Assembly: GCA_019635215.1 (NCBI GenBank)
Contig: JAHBZZ010000027.1
Location: 1-39,220, forward strand
Direction: 5' to 3'
Source of the DNA: Nitrosomonas sp.
GTDB lineage: Bacteria > Pseudomonadota > Gammaproteobacteria > Burkholderiales > Nitrosomonadaceae
Length of the DNA stretch: 39,220 nt
The notes beneath the pieces are model-generated. The model was not told where the DNA came from. It saw only the letters and a list, made by a program, of their open reading frames with translations, and ran no database searches. A program made the translations under genes and the position numbers. Positions 5,392 through 39,148 of this stretch are shown here, piece after piece (the first letter of the stretch is position 1; every line of letters starts with the position of its first letter).

Positions 5392-6519
5392 CTAAACCTC
5401 GATATTATTCATGTATGCCTGTACTAATTGATGATAGTAAGCATCGTTCATCAGGAATGAATCGTGACCGTGTGCCGAAGTAATCTCGGCATAGCTGACA
5501 TTGATATTATTATTCAGCAATGCCTTGACGATATCCCGCGAACGTTCCGGTGAGAAGCGCCAGTCGGTGGTAAACGAGAGCACCAGAAAACGGGCTTTGA
5601 TCGCTTTGAACGCAGCGGTCAGGTCGCCATTATACGCATTGGCCGGGTCAAAATAGTCCAATGCCCGGGTCATCAGCAAATAACTGTTGGCATCGAATAA
5701 ATCGGTGAATTTGTCGCCCTGATAGCGCAGATAAGATTCGATTTCAAATTCGACATCATAGCCGAAAGAGAATTTGCCATCCCTGAGATCGCGCCCGAAT
5801 TTTGTCGCCATCGAGTGATCCGAAAGATAGGTGATATGACCGAGCATGCGAGCGAGCCGTAGCCCACGCCGCGGTACTGTATTATAGGTGTAATAATCGC
5901 CGCCATAAAAATCCTGATCGGTCAGGATCGCCTGGCGCGCCACATCGTTAAATGCGATGTTTTGCGCGGTGAGTTTGGCCGCGGCGGCAATGACGACAGC
6001 ATGGCGAATCTTTTCTGGATAATTGAGCGTCCACTGCAGCGCCTGCATGCCGCCCAGACTGCCGCCGACCACGGCGGCAAATTGCGTGATGCCAAGGTGA
6101 TCCGCCAGTTGCGCCTGGGTTTCGACCCAGTCTTCCACGGTTACAATGGGAAATTTTGCGCCATACTGATGATTGGTCAATGGATCGATACTTGCTGGTC
6201 CGGTGGAGCCATGGCAACCGCCCAGATTGTTGACGCCGATCACAAAAAACTTATTGGTGTCGATGGGTTTGCCGGGACCGACGATATTATCCCACCATCC
6301 GGTGCTCTTGGGTTTGTCGGCGTAAAGGCCGGCGACATGGTGATTTCCCGAAAGCGCGTGGCAGATCAGCAAGGCATTTGAACGGTCGGCATTCAACCGG
6401 CCATAGGTTTCATAAACCAGATGGTAGCTGTTCAATGTCGAGCCGCTTTTCAGTTCCAGGGGCTTATCGATATGCACGTATTGCGGTATTACGATACCAA
6501 CTGAATTTAAATCTTGCAT
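5392..6519 (-). CDS. metX: Homoserine O-acyltransferase MetX
   Basis: 375 residues with an alpha/beta hydrolase fold. The nucleophile elbow is [10 protein letters not shown] with Ser154; Asp319 (TTDWRFSP) and His352 (SAHGHDSF) complete the catalytic triad. ALSGNHH near 55-61 and [14 protein letters not shown] near 97-110 are family signatures. It activates homoserine with acetyl-CoA or succinyl-CoA as the first committed step of methionine synthesis. Many proteobacterial MetX enzymes are succinyltransferases despite their annotation, and the specificity cannot be settled by eye. It is first in a metX-metW operon. No SAM riboswitch fits the 85-base upstream gap. Confidence 0.94.
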
Positions 6520-29672: not shown

Positions 29673-29813
29673 TCCAAAGACAGTCAGCACTTGACGCTGG
29701 AGCATAGCCTCCGCGTCTTCTTATTAAGTCGTTTGTAATTCACTGGATTCCCCGGATACTCTGATGTTTCTGTGCATCTGCCTGTGTCCCCCGAACCTTG
29801 CAGGGACTTTTAC

Positions 29814-31187
29814 ATGAATTTAAATGAATTGAAGTTTGTATTGGCATTGGCGATCTATCGGTCGGGTGCGATGTTCTTCTTGCCGTTCATATTCTGCGTT
29901 ACTGATTTGCAGGCTGGAAGTGCGGCGAAAGCAGGTATTGGAGGCATTATCCTGTCCCAAGATACAGATGCTGCTGCCGAAACATTTCTTGCTGAGGAAG
30001 CCGGGTTGACATTGCAGACCGCGGTACAGCTGGCACTGCAGCATAACCCCGAACTGGCGGCATTCGACAAGGAAGCGCAAGCCTTGCACGGATTGACGAT
30101 ACAGGCGGGATTATTGCCCAATCCTGTCATGCAGTATGATAGCGAAGATATCAGTTCCCGGTCAGATAGTCCGGGTGCGCGGTTCGATTCGATTCGTATC
30201 AGTCAATTATTTGAAACCGGCGGTAAGCGTTCCGCCCGTACCCGGGCTGCTTCCTTGGGGCAGGAGAGTGCCGAGCAGGATTATGCCGCCCGGCGGCTGG
30301 ATTTGATGGCTCGGGTTGCCAATGTGTTTCTGGATGTGCTGGCAGGTCAGGAACGATTGAAGCTGGCGCTTGCCGGTCAAGCGCTTGCGCAGAGAGTGGT
30401 TGATGCCGCAGCCAAACGTGTTAAAGCCGGTAAGGCGCCGCCGATTGAAGAAACGCGCGCACTGGTTGCGCTCGCTACTGCGGATATCGAGGTCGAGCAA
30501 GCGCAGCGTAGCCTGATCTCATTCCGTAAACAGCTCGTGCTGTTATGGGGGAATTCAATCCCCGCTTTTGCGCAGGTGCTGGGTGATCTGGAAGTATTTG
30601 TCGCTATTCCTGAATTGAATGTACTCGAAACTCGTTTACAGCAAAATCCGCTGGCGTTGCGCAGCCTGAAAAACCTCGAGCAACGGCAGGCGCTATTCGC
30701 GCTGGAAAAAGCGCGGCGAATTCCGGATATTACCGTCAATGCGGGAATCAGGCGTTATGGCCATGATATTGCCAATGACACCACGGCGCTGATTGGCGTA
30801 TCAGTACCCTTGCCATTGTTTGATCGCAATCAGGGCAATCTGATGGCGGCGCAGCAGCGCATTAACCGGGCTGTGGACGAACAGGTGGCAACCGATCTGC
30901 AATTGAAGGCACTGCTGACGCAGGCGTACGAGTCGCTGATCGCGGCTGATGCACAAATTGGCAAATTGCGTGATGAAATTCTTCCAGGTGCACGAGAAAC
31001 ATTCAGGATGGCCAGTCGTGGTTATGAATTGGGCAGATTCGGCTTTCTGGAGTTACTGGATGCACAGCGCACATTATTTCAGAATCAGATGCTTTATCTG
31101 CAGGCCTTGACTAATTATCAGCGTTTGATCAATGAAATCGAGCGCTTGATTGCAGAGCCCATGGAACAGATCAATGACAGGTCATAA
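29814..31187 (+). CDS. czcC: Outer-membrane efflux channel, CzcC type
   Basis: 457 residues from ATG 29814, chosen because AGGGA lies seven bases upstream and a signal-like segment follows; an ATG at 29772 would add 14 residues. The protein has the alternating helix/strand repeats of TolC-family channels: LTLQTAVQLALQHNPEL near residue 60 and its echo ARETFRMASRGYELGRFGFLELLDAQRTLF near 390-420. It gives the outer-membrane exit of the CzcCBA-type export complex. It precedes czcB by 60 bases. Confidence 0.9.
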   Translation: MNLNELKFVLALAIYRSGAMFFLPFIFCVTDLQAGSAAKAGIGGIILSQDTDAAAETFLAEEAGLTLQTAVQLALQHNPELAAFDKEAQALHGLTIQAGLLPNPVMQYDSEDISSRSDSPGARFDSIRISQLFETGGKRSARTRAASLGQESAEQDYAARRLDLMARVANVFLDVLAGQERLKLALAGQALAQRVVDAAAKRVKAGKAPPIEETRALVALATADIEVEQAQRSLISFRKQLVLLWGNSIPAFAQVLGDLEVFVAIPELNVLETRLQQNPLALRSLKNLEQRQALFALEKARRIPDITVNAGIRRYGHDIANDTTALIGVSVPLPLFDRNQGNLMAAQQRINRAVDEQVATDLQLKALLTQAYESLIAADAQIGKLRDEILPGARETFRMASRGYELGRFGFLELLDAQRTLFQNQMLYLQALTNYQRLINEIERLIAEPMEQINDRS

Positions 31188-31247
31188 AAGAATTGTACAG
31201 CAGTGCGTGGAAATTCATCGATTTGACGCAGGGTTAAGGAGTGCATT

Positions 31248-32750
31248 GTGAGCGAAACCCATCTAAAACCGATTTTTGTCGTAATTGTTGTTGGTGTCAT
31301 TCTCGGCTGGTTTATCCTTAATCTGGAAAAGCCGACGGCGCTGGATGATGCGCACCATCATGAGTCTTCTAGTTTGTCTACCGATTCGGATCATGCAGAA
31401 AAAACTGGCCCCAGGGGCGGCAGAATCTTTACCACGAATGATTTCAGTGTGGAGGTGATGATTGATGAAAAAGGCGCCGATTCGCAGTTCCGCTTGTACC
31501 TGTATGAAAAGGATAAACCTGTTCCACCAGATGGGGCCAAAGTGACTATGACATTGTCACGGCTCGGCAGATCAGCGCAATTGTTTATCTTTAGCCCAGC
31601 CGGAGATTATCTGCTTGGTGACCAGCCTATAAAAGAACCGCATTCTTTCGATGTTTCAATCGCTGCGGAATGGCGGGGCAAAGTGTTTCACTGGGGGTAC
31701 AGTCAGGTGGAAGCCCGTATCGAAATGAATGAAGATACATTGGTTAGCACGGGCATCAACCTTCAAACCGCAGGTCCGGATGTGATAAAACCCAGACTTC
31801 AACTGCCCGGTATTGTGATGTTCAATCATCACAATATTGTGCGTGTTGTGCCACGGGCGCCGGGCATCGTTCGCGAGGTGCCGCGCCATCTGGGAGAACA
31901 GATCAGTGAAGGCACTGTTTTGGCTGTTATTGAGAGCCAGTTGCTGGCGGATTTGCGCAGTCAGTATCTTGCTGCGTATAAGCGCCTGGCATTGGCAAAT
32001 GTCAATTTTCAACGGGAAAAACAGCTCTGGGAGGAGAAGATAACCGCTAAACAGGAATATCTAACGACACAGCAGCTACTCAGCGAAGCGGAAATTGCGT
32101 TGGATCTCGCTGCGGCAAGACTGCGCGCCATTGGTGAAGAACCCGGAAAGGTCAGGTTGCTGAAGAATCTGACACACTATGAAATCCGCTCGCCTATTTC
32201 GGGTTTGATTACCACCAAAACTATAGCGCGCGGACAAGTTATCAGAGAGGACGATGAAATATTCACCGTTGTTGATACTGCCACCATGTATGCGGATTTG
32301 ACGGTTTATCCCAAGGATCTGGCTGTCATCAAACTCGGGCAGAAAGCCATCATCAAGTCGACAGAGACGAATATTGAGGGTTTGGGAGAGATAACCTATA
32401 TCAGCGCTATGTTAAACCCGCAGACACGGACGGCGATTGCGCGTATTACGTTGGAGAATCCGGGAGGAAAATGGCGTGATGGCCTGTTTGTCCATGGTGC
32501 TGTCGCGATAGAGGAAATAGAGGTGCCGGTTGCTGTAAAAATAGAAGCTTTGCAGACTTTCCATAATCAGACTGTCGTTTTTGCCCGCTATGGTGATTAC
32601 TTTGAAGCACGTCCGCTTGAATTGGGGCGTAGTGACGGTGAAATGGTCGAAGTGCTGGATGGATTGTATGCGGGCGAACAATATGCCGCGCGCAACAGTT
32701 TTGCCGTCAAGGCCGAGTTGGGCAAGTCGGGGGCCGAGCATAACCACTGA
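31248..32750 (+). CDS. czcB: RND efflux periplasmic adaptor, CzcB type
   Basis: 500 residues starting at a GTG with AAGGAG six bases upstream. A membrane anchor (8-25) is followed by a His-rich segment (DDAHHHESSS, TDSDHAEK), an N-terminal extra domain of about 100 residues, then HlyD-type lipoyl/hairpin/barrel parts (RAPGIVREVPRHLGEQISEG, AGLI-like RSPISGLITTKTIARGQVI). The C-terminus ends in AEHNH. It links the inner-membrane pump to the outer-membrane channel, and the histidines may bind metal ions in the periplasm. 42 bases separate it from czcA. Confidence 0.92.
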   Translation: MSETHLKPIFVVIVVGVILGWFILNLEKPTALDDAHHHESSSLSTDSDHAEKTGPRGGRIFTTNDFSVEVMIDEKGADSQFRLYLYEKDKPVPPDGAKVTMTLSRLGRSAQLFIFSPAGDYLLGDQPIKEPHSFDVSIAAEWRGKVFHWGYSQVEARIEMNEDTLVSTGINLQTAGPDVIKPRLQLPGIVMFNHHNIVRVVPRAPGIVREVPRHLGEQISEGTVLAVIESQLLADLRSQYLAAYKRLALANVNFQREKQLWEEKITAKQEYLTTQQLLSEAEIALDLAAARLRAIGEEPGKVRLLKNLTHYEIRSPISGLITTKTIARGQVIREDDEIFTVVDTATMYADLTVYPKDLAVIKLGQKAIIKSTETNIEGLGEITYISAMLNPQTRTAIARITLENPGGKWRDGLFVHGAVAIEEIEVPVAVKIEALQTFHNQTVVFARYGDYFEARPLELGRSDGEMVEVLDGLYAGEQYAARNSFAVKAELGKSGAEHNH

Positions 32751-32792
32751 TTGATGTCCGTTTAATACCAACCCATAAGGCGGGGTAAAACT

Positions 32793-35700
32793 TTGTTTGA
32801 ACGTATTCTACAAGTTTCTATAGATCATCGCGGCCTGGTCATGGTAGCGGTGTTTGCGATGGCCTTGCTGGGTATTTACAGTTACCAGAAAGTGCCAATC
32901 GATGCAGTCCCGGATATTACCAATGTTCAGGTGCAGATCAATACCGAAGCGCCAGGCTATTCACCCCTGGAAACAGAACAGCGGCTGACGTTTCCGATAG
33001 AAATGATCATGATGGGATTGCCGCATCTCGATTACACGCGCTCGCTTTCACGCTATGGTCTGTCGCAGGTTACGGTTGTTTTTAAAGACGGTACTAATAT
33101 TTATTTTGCCCGTCAGCTGGTCAGTCAACGCATACAGGAAGTCAGAAACCGTTTGCCGGCGGGAATCGAACCCCGCATGGGTCCGATTTCCACCGGACTG
33201 GGTGAGATTTTTATGTGGACGGTTGATGCTAAAGAGGGTGCCAGAAAACCGGATGGCACAGCCTACACGACGATTGATCTGCGCGAAATACAGGACTGGA
33301 TTATCCGCCCGCAATTATTGACCGTTCGCGGCGTGACCGAAGTGAACGCAGTCGGCGGCTATGTCAAACAGTTTCATGTGACACCTTATCCCGAAAAGCT
33401 GATTTCGATGGGTTTGACCCTGCAGGATGTGGTTACTGCTTTGTCATTGAATAATCTGAATGTCGGTGCGGGTTATATAGAGAAAAGGGGGGAACAATAT
33501 CTCGTCAGGATTCCGGGTCAAGTCGCCAATCTGACGGAAATCGGTGAGATTATTCTCGGCAGCCGGCAAGGTATCCCGATACGCATTAAGGATGTGGCTG
33601 AGGTCATTATTGGCAAGGAGTTGCGTAATGGCGCTGCGACGCAAAACGGCAGGGAAGTCGTATTGGGGACGGTGCATATGCTGATCGGCGAAAACAGTCA
33701 GATCGTTTCAGCAGCAGCGGCTGCAAAACTGGATGAAATCAATCGCAATCTGCCGGAAGGTATCGTGGCGACACCGGTTTACAATCGCACGACGCTGGTC
33801 GACAAAACGATACAAACGGTCGCCTCCAATCTGACCGAAGGCGCAATTCTGGTCATTGCCGTGCTGTTTTTGTTTCTGGGCAATTTGCGTGCTGCGTTGA
33901 TTACCGCATTGGTGATTCCGCTATCCATGTTGTTTACCTTGATCGGTATGGTTACCAATAATGTCAGCGCTAATTTAATGAGTCTTGGCGCGCTGGATTT
34001 CGGTATCATCGTCGATGGCGCCATTGTCATTGTCGAAAATTGTATCCGCCATTTAGCACTGGAGCAGGCGCGGCTTGGCAGGCGTTTGACGTTGTCTGAG
34101 CGTTTATCCATTGTTTTTTCGGCCAGCAAGGAAACACGAAGAGCACTTTTGTACGGCCAGCTCATTATCATGATCGTCTACATTCCGATTTTTGCGCTTT
34201 CGGGTGTCGAAGGCAAAATGTTTCATCCGATGGCGTTTGCCGTGGTGATTGCGCTTCTGGGTGCGGTTATTCTTTCCGTTACCTTTGTTCCTGCGGCAGT
34301 GGCGCTGTTTCTGACCGGGGATATCCAGGATAAGGAAAACAAAGTAGTTGAGTATTCCAAGCGGACTTATCTGCCCATGCTGAATTGGGTACTGCGTAAC
34401 AGAGCATTAACGATAACACTGGCGGTTACTGTTATGGTACTTTCCGGATTGCTGGCTACCCGGCTGGGCAGTGAGTTTGTGCCGAGCTTGAACGAAGGTG
34501 ATATTGCACTGCATGCGATCCGTATTCCCGGCACCAGTCTGACCACCGCCATCGAGATGCAAAATGAGCTGGAGGAAAAAATCAAAACCTTTGCAGAAGT
34601 TGAACGCGTGTTTTCCAAAATTGGAACAGCGGAAATCGCCACTGATCCCATGCCGCCGAGTGTCGCGGATATATTCATTATTCTGAAAGACCAGGATGAA
34701 TGGGAGGGGCCTTATAAAACCAAAGCCGAGTTGATTGCCGCAATGGAACAGGTTGTCAGCGATGTGCCGGGTAACAATTACGAATTCACGCAACCGATTC
34801 AAATGCGTTTCAATGAATTGATATCGGGCGTTCGTGCCGATGTCGCGATTAAGGTTTTTGGTGACGATATGGATGTGCTGCATGATGTCGGTAACAGAAT
34901 TCTTTCGGTGATCGAAAAAATACCCGGCGCCGCAGATGCAAAAATTGAACAGCTGACTGGCTTGCCGATGCTGTCCATTCAAATGGATCGTGTCAAAATG
35001 GCGCGCTACGGGTTGAATGTCTCGGATGTGCAGAATGTTATCGCGATCGCCGTCGGAGGATTGTCCACCGGCCTGATTTACGAAGGCGACCGCCGTTTCA
35101 ATCTGATTGTGCGCCTGCCGGAGTACTTGCGCGGCAATATCGACGCACTTAAACGGCTGCCTATCCAGTTACCGAATGCAGTATTAAACGTACAGCCGAA
35201 TGCACCTGCAGCCGCTGCTGCTTATCTGACATTGGGCGATGTTGTTTATTTTGATGTTATTGAAGGCCCCAATCAGATCAGCCGAGAAAACGGTAAACGC
35301 AGAGTCGTTGTCAGCGCTAATGTGCGCGGCAGTGATCTGGGTTCGTTCGTGCGTGAAGCGCAGGCGCGTGTCGCTGGTGAAGTGCACATTCCACCCGGTT
35401 ACTGGGTTGCCTGGGGCGGGCAGTATGAGCAACTGGTTTCCGCGACGGAACGTTTGACCATTGTTGTGCCGATCGCATTGGGGTTGATCTTTATGTTGTT
35501 GTATTTGATGTTTGGGAATCTGCGTGATGGCTTACTGGTTTTTATGGGGGTGCCGTTCGCGTTTTCCGGCGGTATTCTGGCGCTCTGGCTGCGAGATATT
35601 CCATTCTCAATTTCTGCGGCAGTGGGTTTTATTGCGTTGTCAGGAATCGCTGTACTGAATGGTTTGGTCCTGCTAACATTCATAAAAAATTTGCGCGAAG

Positions 35701-35960
35701 AGGGGTATACGCTGGATGATGCCATTAAAACAGGCGCGTTATCCCGGTTGCGGCCTGTCCTGATGACAGCTTTGACAGATGCCATCGGTTTTGTGCCCAT
35801 GGCGCTGGCTGTCAGTATCGGTGCTGAAGTTCAGCGTCCATTGGCAACTGTTGTGATTGGCGGTATTCTGACTTCAATGGTATTGACCATGCTGGTCCTT
35901 CCGGTACTGTATCAGATAGCCAATTGGGGGAAAGCCGATAGAAAACCATTAAAAGAATAG
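32793..35960 (+). CDS. czcA: Heavy-metal RND efflux pump, CzcA type
   Basis: 1055 residues, full length, starting at TTG (TTG TTT GAA CGT) with AGGCGGGG upstream. Twelve transmembrane segments and two large periplasmic loops are evident. In TM4, DFGIIVDGAIVIVEN places Asp402, Asp408 and Glu415 exactly where the proton-relay carboxylates of CzcA lie. This favours divalent cations such as Zn, Co or Cd rather than the Cu/Ag branch. Second-half motif AAVGFIALSGIAVLNGLVLLTFI is also typical. Acts as a trimeric proton-driven pump in the inner membrane. Confidence 0.94.
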   Translation: MFERILQVSIDHRGLVMVAVFAMALLGIYSYQKVPIDAVPDITNVQVQINTEAPGYSPLETEQRLTFPIEMIMMGLPHLDYTRSLSRYGLSQVTVVFKDGTNIYFARQLVSQRIQEVRNRLPAGIEPRMGPISTGLGEIFMWTVDAKEGARKPDGTAYTTIDLREIQDWIIRPQLLTVRGVTEVNAVGGYVKQFHVTPYPEKLISMGLTLQDVVTALSLNNLNVGAGYIEKRGEQYLVRIPGQVANLTEIGEIILGSRQGIPIRIKDVAEVIIGKELRNGAATQNGREVVLGTVHMLIGENSQIVSAAAAAKLDEINRNLPEGIVATPVYNRTTLVDKTIQTVASNLTEGAILVIAVLFLFLGNLRAALITALVIPLSMLFTLIGMVTNNVSANLMSLGALDFGIIVDGAIVIVENCIRHLALEQARLGRRLTLSERLSIVFSASKETRRALLYGQLIIMIVYIPIFALSGVEGKMFHPMAFAVVIALLGAVILSVTFVPAAVALFLTGDIQDKENKVVEYSKRTYLPMLNWVLRNRALTITLAVTVMVLSGLLATRLGSEFVPSLNEGDIALHAIRIPGTSLTTAIEMQNELEEKIKTFAEVERVFSKIGTAEIATDPMPPSVADIFIILKDQDEWEGPYKTKAELIAAMEQVVSDVPGNNYEFTQPIQMRFNELISGVRADVAIKVFGDDMDVLHDVGNRILSVIEKIPGAADAKIEQLTGLPMLSIQMDRVKMARYGLNVSDVQNVIAIAVGGLSTGLIYEGDRRFNLIVRLPEYLRGNIDALKRLPIQLPNAVLNVQPNAPAAAAAYLTLGDVVYFDVIEGPNQISRENGKRRVVVSANVRGSDLGSFVREAQARVAGEVHIPPGYWVAWGGQYEQLVSATERLTIVVPIALGLIFMLLYLMFGNLRDGLLVFMGVPFAFSGGILALWLRDIPFSISAAVGFIALSGIAVLNGLVLLTFIKNLREEGYTLDDAIKTGALSRLRPVLMTALTDAIGFVPMALAVSIGAEVQRPLATVVIGGILTSMVLTMLVLPVLYQIANWGKADRKPLKE

Positions 35961-36281: not shown

Positions 36282-36758
36282 ATGGACAAGAAAGAATCGT
36301 TCGAGCAAGCCCATCAATCAGAGTCTGCACAAAAAATGTGTAAGGATGGCAATTTGAACAAGCAAAAACGAAGAATGCTGTTAAAAGGTACTGCCGCTTT
36401 GCCTGTTGTGATGACGCTGTACAGCGGCGCGGCTCTGGCGCGTAGCAGTAACATCACAGGAGAAGCTGGTGACGTGGGTGATGCGGTATTTGTCGATGAA
36501 AGTAGTCCTAAGTTACTCTGCGTGTATTGGAATGAAAAATTGGATAACGGCGCGTATGATCTGGGGGATACGCCGGGATATACCCTGATCACAGACCCTC
36601 CGATCAATCCGCTCACTGATGATCCTGCAACAGTTCTGACCAAAAAGAATGCACAGCTGGAAGAGTGTCATAGGATTGGTGGTATCATGATTTCGGGAGC
36701 GGCTTTTACCTCTATTGCGGCCAAGAGCGGTGCTTTTGATGGTCTGATGAATCTTTGA
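36282..36758 (+). CDS. Small Tat-signal exported protein, possible client of the adjacent modification genes
   Basis: 158 residues. KQKRRMLLKGTAALPVV with Arg30-Arg31 is a twin-arginine signal; a likely cleavage site follows ALA at residue 53. The mature part, about 105 residues, is acidic with many Asp and Gly (GEAGDVGDAVFVDE, DNGAYDLGDTPGY, NPLTDDPATVLTKK) and two cysteines, Cys80 and Cys129. The end is small and apolar (GAAFTSIAAKSGAFDGLMNL). No family recognised. It is first in a run with PqqD-like, HprK-like and nucleotidyltransferase genes, 101 bases ahead of them, so it is a candidate substrate; this is inference. Confidence 0.75.
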   Translation: MDKKESFEQAHQSESAQKMCKDGNLNKQKRRMLLKGTAALPVVMTLYSGAALARSSNITGEAGDVGDAVFVDESSPKLLCVYWNEKLDNGAYDLGDTPGYTLITDPPINPLTDDPATVLTKKNAQLEECHRIGGIMISGAAFTSIAAKSGAFDGLMNL

Positions 36759-36859
36759 TATCAGAAAGTTGCAAGATGTTGCGGGTCAAAACAAATCAAA
36801 GATGAGAATTTAGTATTTTTTAGTTTTTTCAAACACATTTTGTCGAATCGCACTACGGT

Positions 36860-37135
36860 ATGCGCTGGCTATCAAACAATTTTCACTCGCTTTTAATTGC
36901 AGATTGGGAGGATGAATATACGGTGTTTCAGCCCGATTCGGGAAAAACGCACTTTCTCAATCGCATGAGCATGCAAATGCTTTCATTTCTGGACCAGCAT
37001 CCGGCATCTTCTGCAGAAGTTTGCAGTTATCTGAGCAGGGAATTTGAACGGGAAACAAATCAAAACTTTCAAGACAGTATTGAGAAAATACTCTATCATT
37101 TTGACGCATTGGGTTTAATCCGGAAGGAAAATTAG
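36860..37135 (+). CDS. PqqD-like peptide-binding protein
   Basis: 91 residues. Pattern FQPDSGKTHFLNRMSMQMLSF, then a four-helix portion ending YHFDALGLIRKE, fits the PqqD fold, a winged-helix-like chaperone that presents ribosomal peptides to modifying enzymes. The family form with HprK-like neighbours is known to me as 'HPr-rel-A system PqqD family'. It is followed 11 bases later by the kinase-like gene. The start codon ATG at 36860 lacks a strong ribosome binding site. Confidence 0.85.
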   Translation: MRWLSNNFHSLLIADWEDEYTVFQPDSGKTHFLNRMSMQMLSFLDQHPASSAEVCSYLSREFERETNQNFQDSIEKILYHFDALGLIRKEN

Positions 37136-37146
37136 CGATTTAAGGC

Positions 37147-38055
37147 ATGATGGTCAATCAGATTCCATTTCAGGAATTCCTCATGCGGCTTCAGAATAAG
37201 GGTCTCAGAGTGGCGATGGGTCCTTTTAACGTGTGTATTCAGACACAATATAAACCGCTCATCGTGCAGCTTTATACACTTTACAGCCATTACCGGCTGG
37301 CGCAGGATGAGATCGCCGAGTTCCATGTGCGTATCGTTACTGAACGTTCAATCAAGAATCCTTTGAAATTGAAGGTCCGTTTTCTGATCGATGGTCAGTC
37401 TCCGTTCGAGAGTTTTCCAGAAGATCAGGCGCTGGCCGTACTGGAATGGGGAATCAATCTTGCGATCGCCGTTCGCGTCAATCACTTTTTGTTGCTGCAT
37501 TCGGCAGTGGTTGAAAAGAACAATAATGTCATGTTGTTTCCGGCCTGGCCAGGCAGCGGTAAGACGACATTATGCACAGCACTGTCACACCGCGGATTCC
37601 GTCTGTTTTCCGATGAATTCGGTCTAATGGATTTCCGGCAGGGTGTTTTTCATCCCCTGCCGCGCCTGATGCCGCTAAAGAATGAATCTATACCGGTAAT
37701 CCGCAAACATCTGCCGGAGGCCGTCATTGGCCAGCCCATACCCAATACGCACAAAGGCACCGTCGCGCATGTCTGTCCGCCCGAAGAAAGCCTGCAGTTG
37801 TCAAAAAACACAGCCAAAGCGCGCTGGATTATTTTCCCTAAGTGGGTTGCAGAATCGGCGACACGACTGGAACCTATTGCCGATGCTGAGGCATTCATGT
37901 TATTGGCCAGTAACGCGTTCAATTATGAAGTTCTCGGCGCAAGCGGGTTTCGGGCTGTTGCGCAGCTGATTTCCAGCTGCGATTGCTATACACTGGTTTA
38001 TTCCGATTTGGATGAAATAACGGCTGCACTGCATCATTTGGTCGATGAAACCTGA
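37147..38055 (+). CDS. HprK-related kinase
   Basis: 302 residues. The P-loop PAWPGSGKTTL (Lys139, Thr140) and the downstream LFSDEFGLM (Asp156, Glu157) match the C-terminal kinase half of HPr kinase/phosphorylase, and LLLHSAVV before the P-loop (His118) also resembles it. The N-terminal half lacks the usual HprK regulatory domain. It resembles the family called HprK-related kinase A. The phosphate acceptor is unknown. It ends overlapping the nucleotidyltransferase gene by 11 bases, so the two are translationally coupled. An alternative ATG directly follows the first. Confidence 0.88.
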   Translation: MMVNQIPFQEFLMRLQNKGLRVAMGPFNVCIQTQYKPLIVQLYTLYSHYRLAQDEIAEFHVRIVTERSIKNPLKLKVRFLIDGQSPFESFPEDQALAVLEWGINLAIAVRVNHFLLLHSAVVEKNNNVMLFPAWPGSGKTTLCTALSHRGFRLFSDEFGLMDFRQGVFHPLPRLMPLKNESIPVIRKHLPEAVIGQPIPNTHKGTVAHVCPPEESLQLSKNTAKARWIIFPKWVAESATRLEPIADAEAFMLLASNAFNYEVLGASGFRAVAQLISSCDCYTLVYSDLDEITAALHHLVDET

Positions 38056-39148
38056 TTATCGCCATCATCAGATTCTGCTTGAGGCATTCATCAATCCGGG
38101 ATGCCTTGCGCATTACTCGGATTCAGAGTGGGAGCTGCTCATCAGGCTGGCGAGGCGTGTCAAACTGCTGGGGCGTTTGGCTTTGCTGTTGAAAAACAAC
38201 GACCTCTGGGCGGAAGCACCGTCAAGGATTACGAACCAGTTGACATCCGCGTTAGTGCAGGCGGAGAAATTGAAGCAATCGACACAATGGGAACTGAACC
38301 GGGTCGTGTGGGCACTGGAGGATTGCGATACCACCATCATCGCACTCAAGGGAGCCGCTTATGTCCTGGCAGGTTTGCCCTATTCGGAAGGACGATTATC
38401 CGTTGATCTGGATTTGATGGTGCCCGCAGGCGATCTGGGGGAAATTGAATCCTTGCTCAAAATCAAGGGGTGGCGGCATCGTCCGATTTCGGTTTATGAC
38501 GAGCATTACTATCGCGTCTGGAGTCATGAAATTCCACCACTTGTTCATGCTGAACGAGAAACCGAGGTGGATATTCATCATACCCTTGCGCCACTCACCA
38601 GCCGGCTGAAGATCAATACCGAACTGCTTTTTGCTGAGGCGTTGGCAACACCGCACGCTAAAGTGAAATTACTCAGCCCGATCGATATGACAATACATTG
38701 TGCGGTTAATCTTTTCCAGAATAATGAACTGGCCGACGATTTACGCGACCTGCTGGATCTGCATGACTTAATGGTTTTCTTCAGTGACCAGGATACCGGT
38801 TTCTGGGAGCATCTCACTGATCGCGCCAATCAGCTGAAGCTGAGGCGTATTCTGTATTACGGCCTTTACTTCAGCCAACTGATTTTCAGAACGCCGGTGC
38901 CGATGGGTGTTGCTAATCGGTTGCATGCAAAACCTGGCGGTATGAAACGCTGGATAATGCACCGGCTGGTTCCGCTGGCTTTGTTGCCGCAACATCCCGA
39001 CAAGCCGATGAAACGGGCTGCATTGGCACGATGGATACTCTACTTGCGCAGTCATCTTATACGCATGCCGCTGTATATATTGTTGCCACACTTGATATAT
39101 AAAACAGCGCGCATGCTCATGGCGAAAAGCAAAATTTTACGGCGTTAA
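38045..39148 (+). CDS. Uncharacterised nucleotidyltransferase (NTP_transf_5-like)
   Basis: 367 residues. IIALKGAAYVL (Lys102) followed by GRLSVDLDLMVP (Asp121, Asp123) and EVDIHH (Asp176) give the three-acid pattern of nucleotidyltransferase folds, in the form known from the uncharacterised family PF14907. Such proteins occur with PqqD-like and kinase-like genes in peptide-modifying clusters. The C-terminal third (about 290-367) is basic and contains possible helices LYILLPHLIYKTARMLM. It starts inside the kinase gene. The activity is unknown; AMPylation or other NMP transfer is possible by fold alone. Confidence 0.85.
   Translation: MKPDYRHHQILLEAFINPGCLAHYSDSEWELLIRLARRVKLLGRLALLLKNNDLWAEAPSRITNQLTSALVQAEKLKQSTQWELNRVVWALEDCDTTIIALKGAAYVLAGLPYSEGRLSVDLDLMVPAGDLGEIESLLKIKGWRHRPISVYDEHYYRVWSHEIPPLVHAERETEVDIHHTLAPLTSRLKINTELLFAEALATPHAKVKLLSPIDMTIHCAVNLFQNNELADDLRDLLDLHDLMVFFSDQDTGFWEHLTDRANQLKLRRILYYGLYFSQLIFRTPVPMGVANRLHAKPGGMKRWIMHRLVPLALLPQHPDKPMKRAALARWILYLRSHLIRMPLYILLPHLIYKTARMLMAKSKILRR

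Follow-up and report, generated by a model that had tools for sequence, protein, structure and literature searches.

A conserved four-gene cluster at a Nitrosomonas contig end: a Tat-like precursor linked to an HprK-like kinase, and a proposed kinship with phosphorylating RiPP pathways

Ribosomally synthesised and post-translationally modified peptides (RiPPs) phosphorylated by HprK-like kinases include linear polyphosphorylated peptides and some lasso peptides. The linear polyphosphorylated peptide (LPP) pathway of Bacillota, represented by the lpp cluster of Paenibacillus alginolyticus, is reported to have a kinase, LppK, that phosphorylates Ser3 of the core, and an adaptor that binds YxxP, the leader motif being YxxPxVL (PMC13381572). 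For the lasso peptides paeninodin and pseudomycoidin, reviews assign phosphorylation of the C-terminal serine to the HprK-like kinases PadeK and PsmK (PMC8498205, PMC9266682) and link PsmN, the nearest studied counterpart of the nucleotidyltransferase described below, to a hexose on the phosphorylated peptide (PMC9266682). The stretch of DNA analysed here (the window) comprises 39,220 nucleotides of contig JAHBZZ010000027.1 from the ammonia oxidiser Nitrosomonas sp., and its list of open reading frames (ORFs) ends in four genes on the same (forward) strand that encode a Tat (twin-arginine translocation)-like protein, a PqqD-like adaptor, an HprK-like kinase and a nucleotidyltransferase. These form a real, conserved four-part system, in which the RiPP theme of RiPP recognition element (RRE), HprK-like kinase and NTP transferase takes a new form. 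We propose that it is a proteobacterial relative of LPP in Bacillota, with Tat-exported proteins as its targets, and put the probability that this mechanism is right in outline at roughly 0.6. The genes and the features discussed are as follows.

36282..36758, forward strand: precursor and presumed substrate, 158 residues, with a Tat-like signal peptide and a mature part of about 105 residues
36369..36440, forward strand: leader (signal-peptide region of the precursor), residues 30-53, RRMLLKGTAALPVVMTLYSGAALA
36447..36449, forward strand: Ser56, candidate phospho-acceptor, third residue after the presumed AxA site (ALA, then RSS)
36702..36716, forward strand: C-terminal motif AFTSI, residues 141-145, with Ser144 as candidate phospho-acceptor (Ser in 37/37 rows of alignment A3, below)
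36860..37135, forward strand: PqqD-like adaptor (RRE), 91 residues; 70.6 bits to TIGR04353 (PqqD_rel_X; NCBIfam cut-off 35)
37147..38055, forward strand: HprK-related kinase A, 302 residues, with P-loop G136-x-G-K139-T and D156-E157; 349.2 bits to TIGR04352 (HprK_rel_A; NCBIfam cut-off 200)
38045..39148, forward strand: nucleotidyltransferase of Pol-beta type, 367 residues, with D121-x-D123 and D176; 161.4 bits to PF14907 (NTP_transf_5; Pfam cut-off 31.2)

The preliminary description of this DNA, made from the letters alone, had placed four ORFs at these positions and noted that the last three are closely joined. Both statements hold, the spacing in gene order being 101 bases, 11 bases and then an 11-base overlap. 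The catalytic residues that it had named are likewise intact: Lys139, Asp156 and Glu157 of the kinase are invariant in an alignment of relatives (28 rows; column 140 is S or T), as are Asp121, Asp123 and Asp176 of the nucleotidyltransferase (29 rows). Its assignment to the HPr-rel-A type is borne out by the kinase and adaptor scores. The contig terminates at 39220, 72 bases past the operon. In 9 of the 11 other loci of the genus with flanks, the next recurrent gene lies on the opposite strand (MgtE-like in 6, DnaJ-like in 3), an arrangement that points to the nucleotidyltransferase gene as the last of the operon. The kinase shares up to 84% identity with named Nitrosomonas relatives.

The linkage of precursor and enzymes is retained across genomes. 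Kinases over the TIGR04352 cut-off were found in 16 of 61 genomes of relatives and 27 of 274 genomes of the class, the window's own genome being in both sets. Forty of the 41 other loci were fetched with wider flanks (G319 was left out) and, together with 80 named loci and the window, gave 121 loci, or 114 distinct loci once seven duplicates were removed. Most hosts belong to the Pseudomonadota; among the 80 named records are two, both contigs of metagenome-assembled genomes, labelled Planctomycetota. The nucleotidyltransferase gene is present at 112 of the 114 loci, six times on the opposite strand, and the other two loci lie near contig ends; the adaptor is found by hidden Markov model (HMM) at 109. 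A Tat-like precursor is present at 110 loci (101 by HMM and 9 by eye), so the small neighbour protein to which the preliminary description had tied its idea accompanies the trio at most loci. All the HMM-found precursors share the strand of the kinase, 98 being upstream of it and three downstream (L066, L124 and L170). Locus L170 has two nucleotidyltransferase matches besides its downstream precursor match, suggesting tandem cluster copies. RR or KR occurs within the first 120 residues of 106 of the 110 precursors, and in the remaining four (L057, L091, L139 and L164) the start was called within the leader or beyond it. Three of the four loci lacking a precursor are cut by contig ends (L112, L113 and L168), while L152 shows none. 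When 37 genomes of the genus were searched both ways, precursor and kinase were found in the same 12, in single copy each, and neither in the other 25. A model built from the second precursor class (A4, below) matches 24 of the 27 class genomes over the kinase cut-off, many of which had themselves supplied rows of A4. The Tat-like protein is very probably the client of this machinery.

For the precursor, searches of Pfam and NCBIfam (expectation value, E, up to 1) and of PHROGs and PADLOC (E up to 0.01) gave no family. The protein has the features of a Tat substrate, namely a twin arginine, a hydrophobic stretch and AxA, and TatC is encoded in the genome. The longest conserved stretch among the precursors is the signal region, with a common leader RR...P-x-[VI]-[ML]-T-L-x-S; in the window this region reads RRMLLKG...ALARSS and includes the twin arginine, Pro41, Thr45-Leu46, Ser48-Gly49 and AxA. 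Of the 40 precursors in the window's class, 37 were aligned as A3 (L057, L083 and L085 were left out), with a mean column identity of 16%. R30, R31, P41, T45 and Ser144 are present in all 37 rows, L46, S48 and A53 in 36 each and G49 in 35; position 56 is Ser in 34 and Cys in three. The preliminary description had called this a Tat protein, in keeping with the invariance of the twin arginine in the 37 rows, though no Pfam or NCBIfam model matches. The mature part is predicted to fold: in the AlphaFold2 model, the mean predicted local distance difference test score is 88-95 in ten-residue blocks from 61 to 140, with a predicted template modelling score of 0.58.

Beyond the leader, most of the precursors carry one of two serine motifs, and these follow the kinase phylogeny. 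Class labels (N, X and G) were assigned by eye, prior to the C-terminal motif count and the tree. In the window's class, [ACS]xxS[ILFVM] occurs within the last 30 residues of 40/40 precursors, about 8 being expected from shuffled tails, and its conserved serine lies 2-14 residues from the protein end; only 1 of the 70 other-class precursors has the motif near its C-terminus. Among those 70, SGNxS is present in 40 in strict and 51 in relaxed form; the window's class, with 40 precursors, has 1 strict and 3 relaxed instances. A4 aligns 36 of the 70, chosen for a visible SGNxS/GYWK region. Its fixed points are the twin arginine and Ser67 and Ser71 of SGNxS (36/36 each), followed by Ser63 and Asn69 (35/36), Cys59 and Cys79 (34/36) and then P-G-Y-W. 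The smallest precursors, L148 with 85 residues (signal plus SGNMSG) and L083 with 74 (signal plus about 12 residues, ending CNASLI), may represent the bare minimum, L083 being possibly a truncated gene since the A4 match there continues past stop codons. Plasmid copies fit the same classes: the Vibrio alfacsensis precursor has SGNAS and that of Sphingomonas parapaucimobilis ends SGYTCFLSVQNPRT.

In a FastTree phylogeny of 109 kinases, the C-terminal-motif class is separated from the rest by a single change (shuffled mean 32.7) at a branch with support 100. The five loci lacking a usable precursor (L112, L113, L168, L152 and L091) were left out of this tree; with them included under the default label G, the two classes require four changes. 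The frame of one of the five, L168, is truncated; its last residues, CMWSLAH, are in keeping with the C-terminal class. As the C-terminal motif had been read off A3 before it was counted, a held-out test carries more weight. In a phylum sample, 61 of 398 genomes exceed the kinase cut-off, and 56 loci, one of them a duplicate, formed the held-out set (four already-seen genomes and the partial hit G516 were not used). For 32 held-out loci, the closest labelled kinase belongs to the C-terminal class and is at least 45% identical; a script found a precursor at 25 of these, and all 25 carry the motif, compared with 1 of 5 in the other class. Below 45% identity, the motif is present in 6/6 with a C-terminal-class neighbour. 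A strictly C-terminal serine target, as for PadeK, was rejected given the position of the invariant serine ahead of the protein end. An Asn-X-Ser/Thr glycosylation sequon was likewise set aside, being seen in SGNxS and some window-type precursors and not in others.

The bearing of the leader on adaptor binding is clearest in divergent relatives. A4 also matched small ORFs, some of them beside divergent HprK-like genes. Six such ORFs, approximating SRRxFIKKAAYxAPVVLTLxAxPSxA, have Y-x-x-P-x-[VIL] inside the Tat signal (6/6 rows), a motif reported as the binding site of lasso and LPP adaptors (PMC13381572). A lasso B1 model is the closest one for the adaptors of L175 and L176 (50.4 and 52.9 bits, below its cut-off of 70), and the L176 adaptor also has a PDB match to TfuB1 (E 2.5e-5). 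A 40-position leader model from the six rows gave 18 matches in 12 of the 274 class genomes; for 11 of the matches an HprK-like gene was found no more than about 3.5 kb away, in a search that scored at most eight candidates per genome. With the model's own rows excluded, 7 of 12 lie near such a gene, four of these being TIGR04352 clusters of the SGNxS class. At L184:6135-7328, adaptor and kinase are clearly one ORF beside a nucleotidyltransferase gene, and directly upstream is a Tat-like precursor with YTPPAV. From YxxP inside Tat signals, B1-like adaptors and the L184 arrangement we infer that the Tat export signal would double as the adaptor's docking leader.

L183:2095-3261 and L185:1559-2803 are probably adaptor-kinase fusions too, likewise beside a nucleotidyltransferase gene, with weaker adaptor matches. 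Small Tat-signal proteins of 54-105 residues, with a hydrophobic core that contains the full or near YxxP adaptor motif, are encoded at L174:4576-4749 and 6212-6391 (57 and 59 residues), L175:4446-4709, L177:5191-5418, L178:5122-5439, L194, L195 and L205; some adjoin divergent HprK-like genes and others do not. L180:8063-9553 encodes a 496-residue protein beside a divergent adaptor, kinase and nucleotidyltransferase set, and its signal-like stretch IWHKPVVDAVLLPAHAQTS has WxxP and a serine three residues after AxA. The SGNxS-class region downstream of the leader is also matched, leaderless, in frames of 207-1352 residues (G075:C37:129742-130083, G140:C1:389895-390254, G144:C6:171855-172229, G159:C48:1509-1817 and G275:C152:233-565).

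On the basis of the genes, their linkage, the conserved leader and the serine-motif classes that fit the kinase phylogeny, we propose that the operon encodes a protein-marking system akin to the RRE, HprK-like kinase and NTP-transferase module of LPP and paeninodin-type RiPPs. The product of 36282-36758 would be synthesised as a Tat precursor and bound by the PqqD-like adaptor through the signal-peptide core P-x-[VI]-[ML]-T-L-x-S, the export signal thereby acting as RiPP leader. The adaptor would hand the precursor to the kinase, which would phosphorylate a conserved serine: either Ser144 near the C-terminus, by analogy with the C-terminal serine of the lasso kinases, or Ser56 at mature position 3, by analogy with LppK. 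The Pol-beta-type nucleotidyltransferase may then elaborate the phosphate or cap the site, with a nucleotide or, as for PsmN, a sugar. The finished protein, marked before leaving the cell, would be exported by Tat and its leader cut by ordinary signal peptidase, these two taking the roles that in the LPP system fall to an SpI peptidase and an MsbA-like exporter of its own. The preliminary description had inferred that the kinase and nucleotidyltransferase modify a bound peptide; a linked candidate substrate does exist, though it is probably a Tat-type precursor with a predicted fold and not a small peptide. Adenylylation, as it had suggested, is left as one option by the Pol-beta-type fold, while PsmN was linked to hexose instead (PMC9266682). 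In its broadest form the proposal is of a system, widespread among proteobacteria, whose RRE adaptor recognises a docking motif within the Tat signal; serine motifs encoded in the precursor would be phosphorylated in the cytoplasm by two kinase clades, one per motif class, and the protein, perhaps glycosylated on the phosphate or nucleotidylated, would then be exported by Tat. We give this full statement even odds.

A number of observations weigh against the proposal. The window leader, TAALPVVMTL, keeps P41 but has Ala38 at P-3, without the Tyr or Trp of [Y/W]xxP, and its family retains the proline and the hydrophobic-Thr-Leu part without the tyrosine, so recognition must differ from that in lasso and LPP systems. 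Seven of the 18 leader-model matches have no HprK-like gene detected nearby. Curated Tat-signal models in Pfam and NCBIfam do not match the window precursor; at E up to 1, PF10518 reaches 3/37 and TIGR01409 1/37 of its class, and each reaches 1/36 of the other. An SGNxS-like motif extends to just 51 of the 70 precursors of the second class, and among held-out loci below 45% kinase identity whose nearest neighbour is labelled G, 4 of 9 precursors carry the C-terminal motif; class typing below that identity is not reliable. Nine class genomes have an A4 match and no kinase over the cut-off, some having the mature domain alone in longer frames or a match beside divergent kinases. The perfect co-occurrence within the genus may reflect mere inheritance of one operon. 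Two serines, Ser56 and Ser144, remain candidates as acceptor. The nucleotidyltransferase step is the weakest, because LppN is reported to have changed no product in its own study (PMC13381572).

The genomic neighbourhoods differ between the two classes. Near the 74 loci of the SGNxS class, which include the four without a precursor and vary in flank length, PrsT is found 12 times, a sugar epimerase 17 times and an HtrA-like protease 24 times; the corresponding counts near the 40 window-class loci are 0, 2 and 2. A minority of loci in the SGNxS class are accompanied by XrtA/PEP-CTERM and polysaccharide genes, making a surface or matrix role for that class plausible. An XrtA amidotransferase gene, near 6 of the 114 loci (one of the window's class) and recurring in 3 of the 41, scores 1080.6 bits to its own model and 268.5 bits to the lasso cyclase model (cut-off 525). 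For the window's class, the neighbourhoods of the 40 loci give no pointer to a role. Ahead of the operon, at window 29772-35960, are three genes resembling a metal efflux set of CzcC/CzcB/CzcA type. The same upstream genes are seen at 11 of the 12 loci of the genus, counting the window, and at none of 29 other loci examined; a functional tie was rejected and the arrangement read as inherited synteny. A defence or phage module was also rejected: PADLOC and PHROG searches with the four proteins gave nothing at E up to 0.01, and a single-sequence search found no kinase relatives in viral contigs. On the Vibrio alfacsensis plasmid the cluster (L172:6911-9978) adjoins 2-aminoethylphosphonate transport genes, and an unannotated ORF before its kinase is possibly the adaptor. 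The cluster on the Sphingomonas parapaucimobilis plasmid (L173:7212-9835) lies between phosphate-uptake (pst/pho) genes and glmU/glmS.

The precursor could instead be a stable partner or client that is not covalently modified, with adaptor and kinase forming a folding or export checkpoint, a proofreading system like that of Tat chaperones, and the kinase acting as regulator of adaptor or signal peptide. Such a checkpoint would be in line with the binding of signal peptides by cytoplasmic Tat chaperones, with the signal region being the longest conserved part of the precursors and with the predicted fold of the mature part. It leaves unexplained why a serine beyond the signal is invariant (Ser144 in 37/37, the C-terminal motif in 25/25 held-out precursors) and why motif class is tied to kinase clade, and the LPP precedent is one of direct phosphorylation; we consider it unlikely. 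Very short precursors (L148 with 85 residues, L083 with 74 if not truncated, and the 57- and 59-residue relatives in L174) might alternatively point to a short secreted peptide, the serine motif being the core, the folded region a carrier and the RiPP released by proteolysis. The HtrA-like gene near 24 of 74 other-class loci would fit this, yet it is near only 2 of 40 window-class loci, where other proteases were not sought; the mature fold of the window protein is confidently predicted, and LPP, the nearest relative, retains a 45-residue core. A released peptide therefore seems to us distinctly improbable.

The remaining alternative concerns the order of the enzymes. The nucleotidyltransferase might act first or alone, by transfer of a nucleoside monophosphate (NMPylation) or of a phospho-alcohol as in LicD/FKRP-like enzymes, while the kinase prepares a small-molecule or sugar substrate. 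FKRP is a ribitol-phosphate transferase. The model of the window's nucleotidyltransferase has a Pol-beta-type fold with the DxD...D triad, closest to MenT1, ANT(2'')-Ia and LnuA; FKRP appears at Foldseek rank 18, and one plasmid copy of the cluster adjoins 2-aminoethylphosphonate genes. No Foldseek match reaches E 0.001, however, that to FKRP being weak (E 0.18), paeninodin- and LPP-type HprK-like kinases phosphorylate the precursor itself, and at L184 the adaptor is fused to the kinase and not to the nucleotidyltransferase. We regard this order of events as very doubtful and retain the proposal of adaptor-guided phosphorylation of the Tat precursor.

With a likely substrate, a docking region and two candidate acceptor sites named, the function of the cluster becomes directly testable. 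If the proposal is true, RiPP leader recognition is joined to Tat export, a combination that we did not find in the openly licensed papers searched. It would also carry LPP-type chemistry beyond the peptides of Bacillota, to proteins that many Pseudomonadota export, and could explain modified surface proteins, some of them encoded near exopolysaccharide genes.

Among described families, HPr-rel-A of NCBIfam (TIGR04352 and TIGR04353) takes in the window's kinase and adaptor, whose genes lie 11 bases apart and whose products score far over both cut-offs. The entries cover kinase and adaptor only, and do not include the precursor, leader, serine motifs or Tat link. No function, substrate or product for HPr-rel-A was found in the openly licensed papers searched, which accords with the preliminary description's view of the product as undescribed. 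The SynChlorMet cassette (ScmC and ScmD; TIGR04249 and TIGR04248) gives distant kinase and adaptor matches (E 0.0077 and 0.00057), both far under cut-off; its other genes were not sought. Against Pfam PF05402 the adaptor scores 20.7 bits, below the cut-off of 23.4.

The paeninodin and pseudomycoidin pathways share a B1 adaptor, an HprK-like kinase and a nucleotidyltransferase (PsmN, compared by description) with the window. Adaptor profile A5 weakly matches the lasso B1 proteins TbiB1 (E 0.028) and TfuB1 (E 0.14), below matches to designed proteins that we took as artefacts. The window-class serine lies 2-14 residues from the end, in contrast to the strictly C-terminal serine of those peptides. 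A lasso peptide cluster was rejected, no B2 protease or cyclase being recognised among the neighbours that recur in at least 3 of the 41 loci.

The LPP system differs from the window's in several respects. A linked SpI peptidase and MsbA-like exporter are present there and a Tat-like signal here; neither peptidase nor exporter was recognised, by eye and by family search of eight representatives, among neighbours recurring in at least 3 of the 41 loci. The window leader is without the Tyr of YxxPxVL, whereas YxxPx[VIL] is present in the divergent relatives. LPP precursors are given as 35-200 residues, with the 45-residue core kept (PMC13381572); the presumed window substrate has 158 and is predicted to fold. 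Hosts are Bacillota there and mostly Pseudomonadota here. The likenesses are a discrete RRE adaptor, an HprK-like kinase and an NTP transferase in one cluster (LppN compared by description), and a linked precursor with a conserved N-terminal leader, including P-x-V-L, a variable rest and no cyclase. LPP clusters are reported to sit in capsule loci (PMC13381572); here, a minority of the SGNxS-class loci have XrtA or sugar genes nearby. Finally, Ser3 of the LPP core may have its counterpart in Ser56 of the window precursor, the candidate acceptor at presumed mature position 3.

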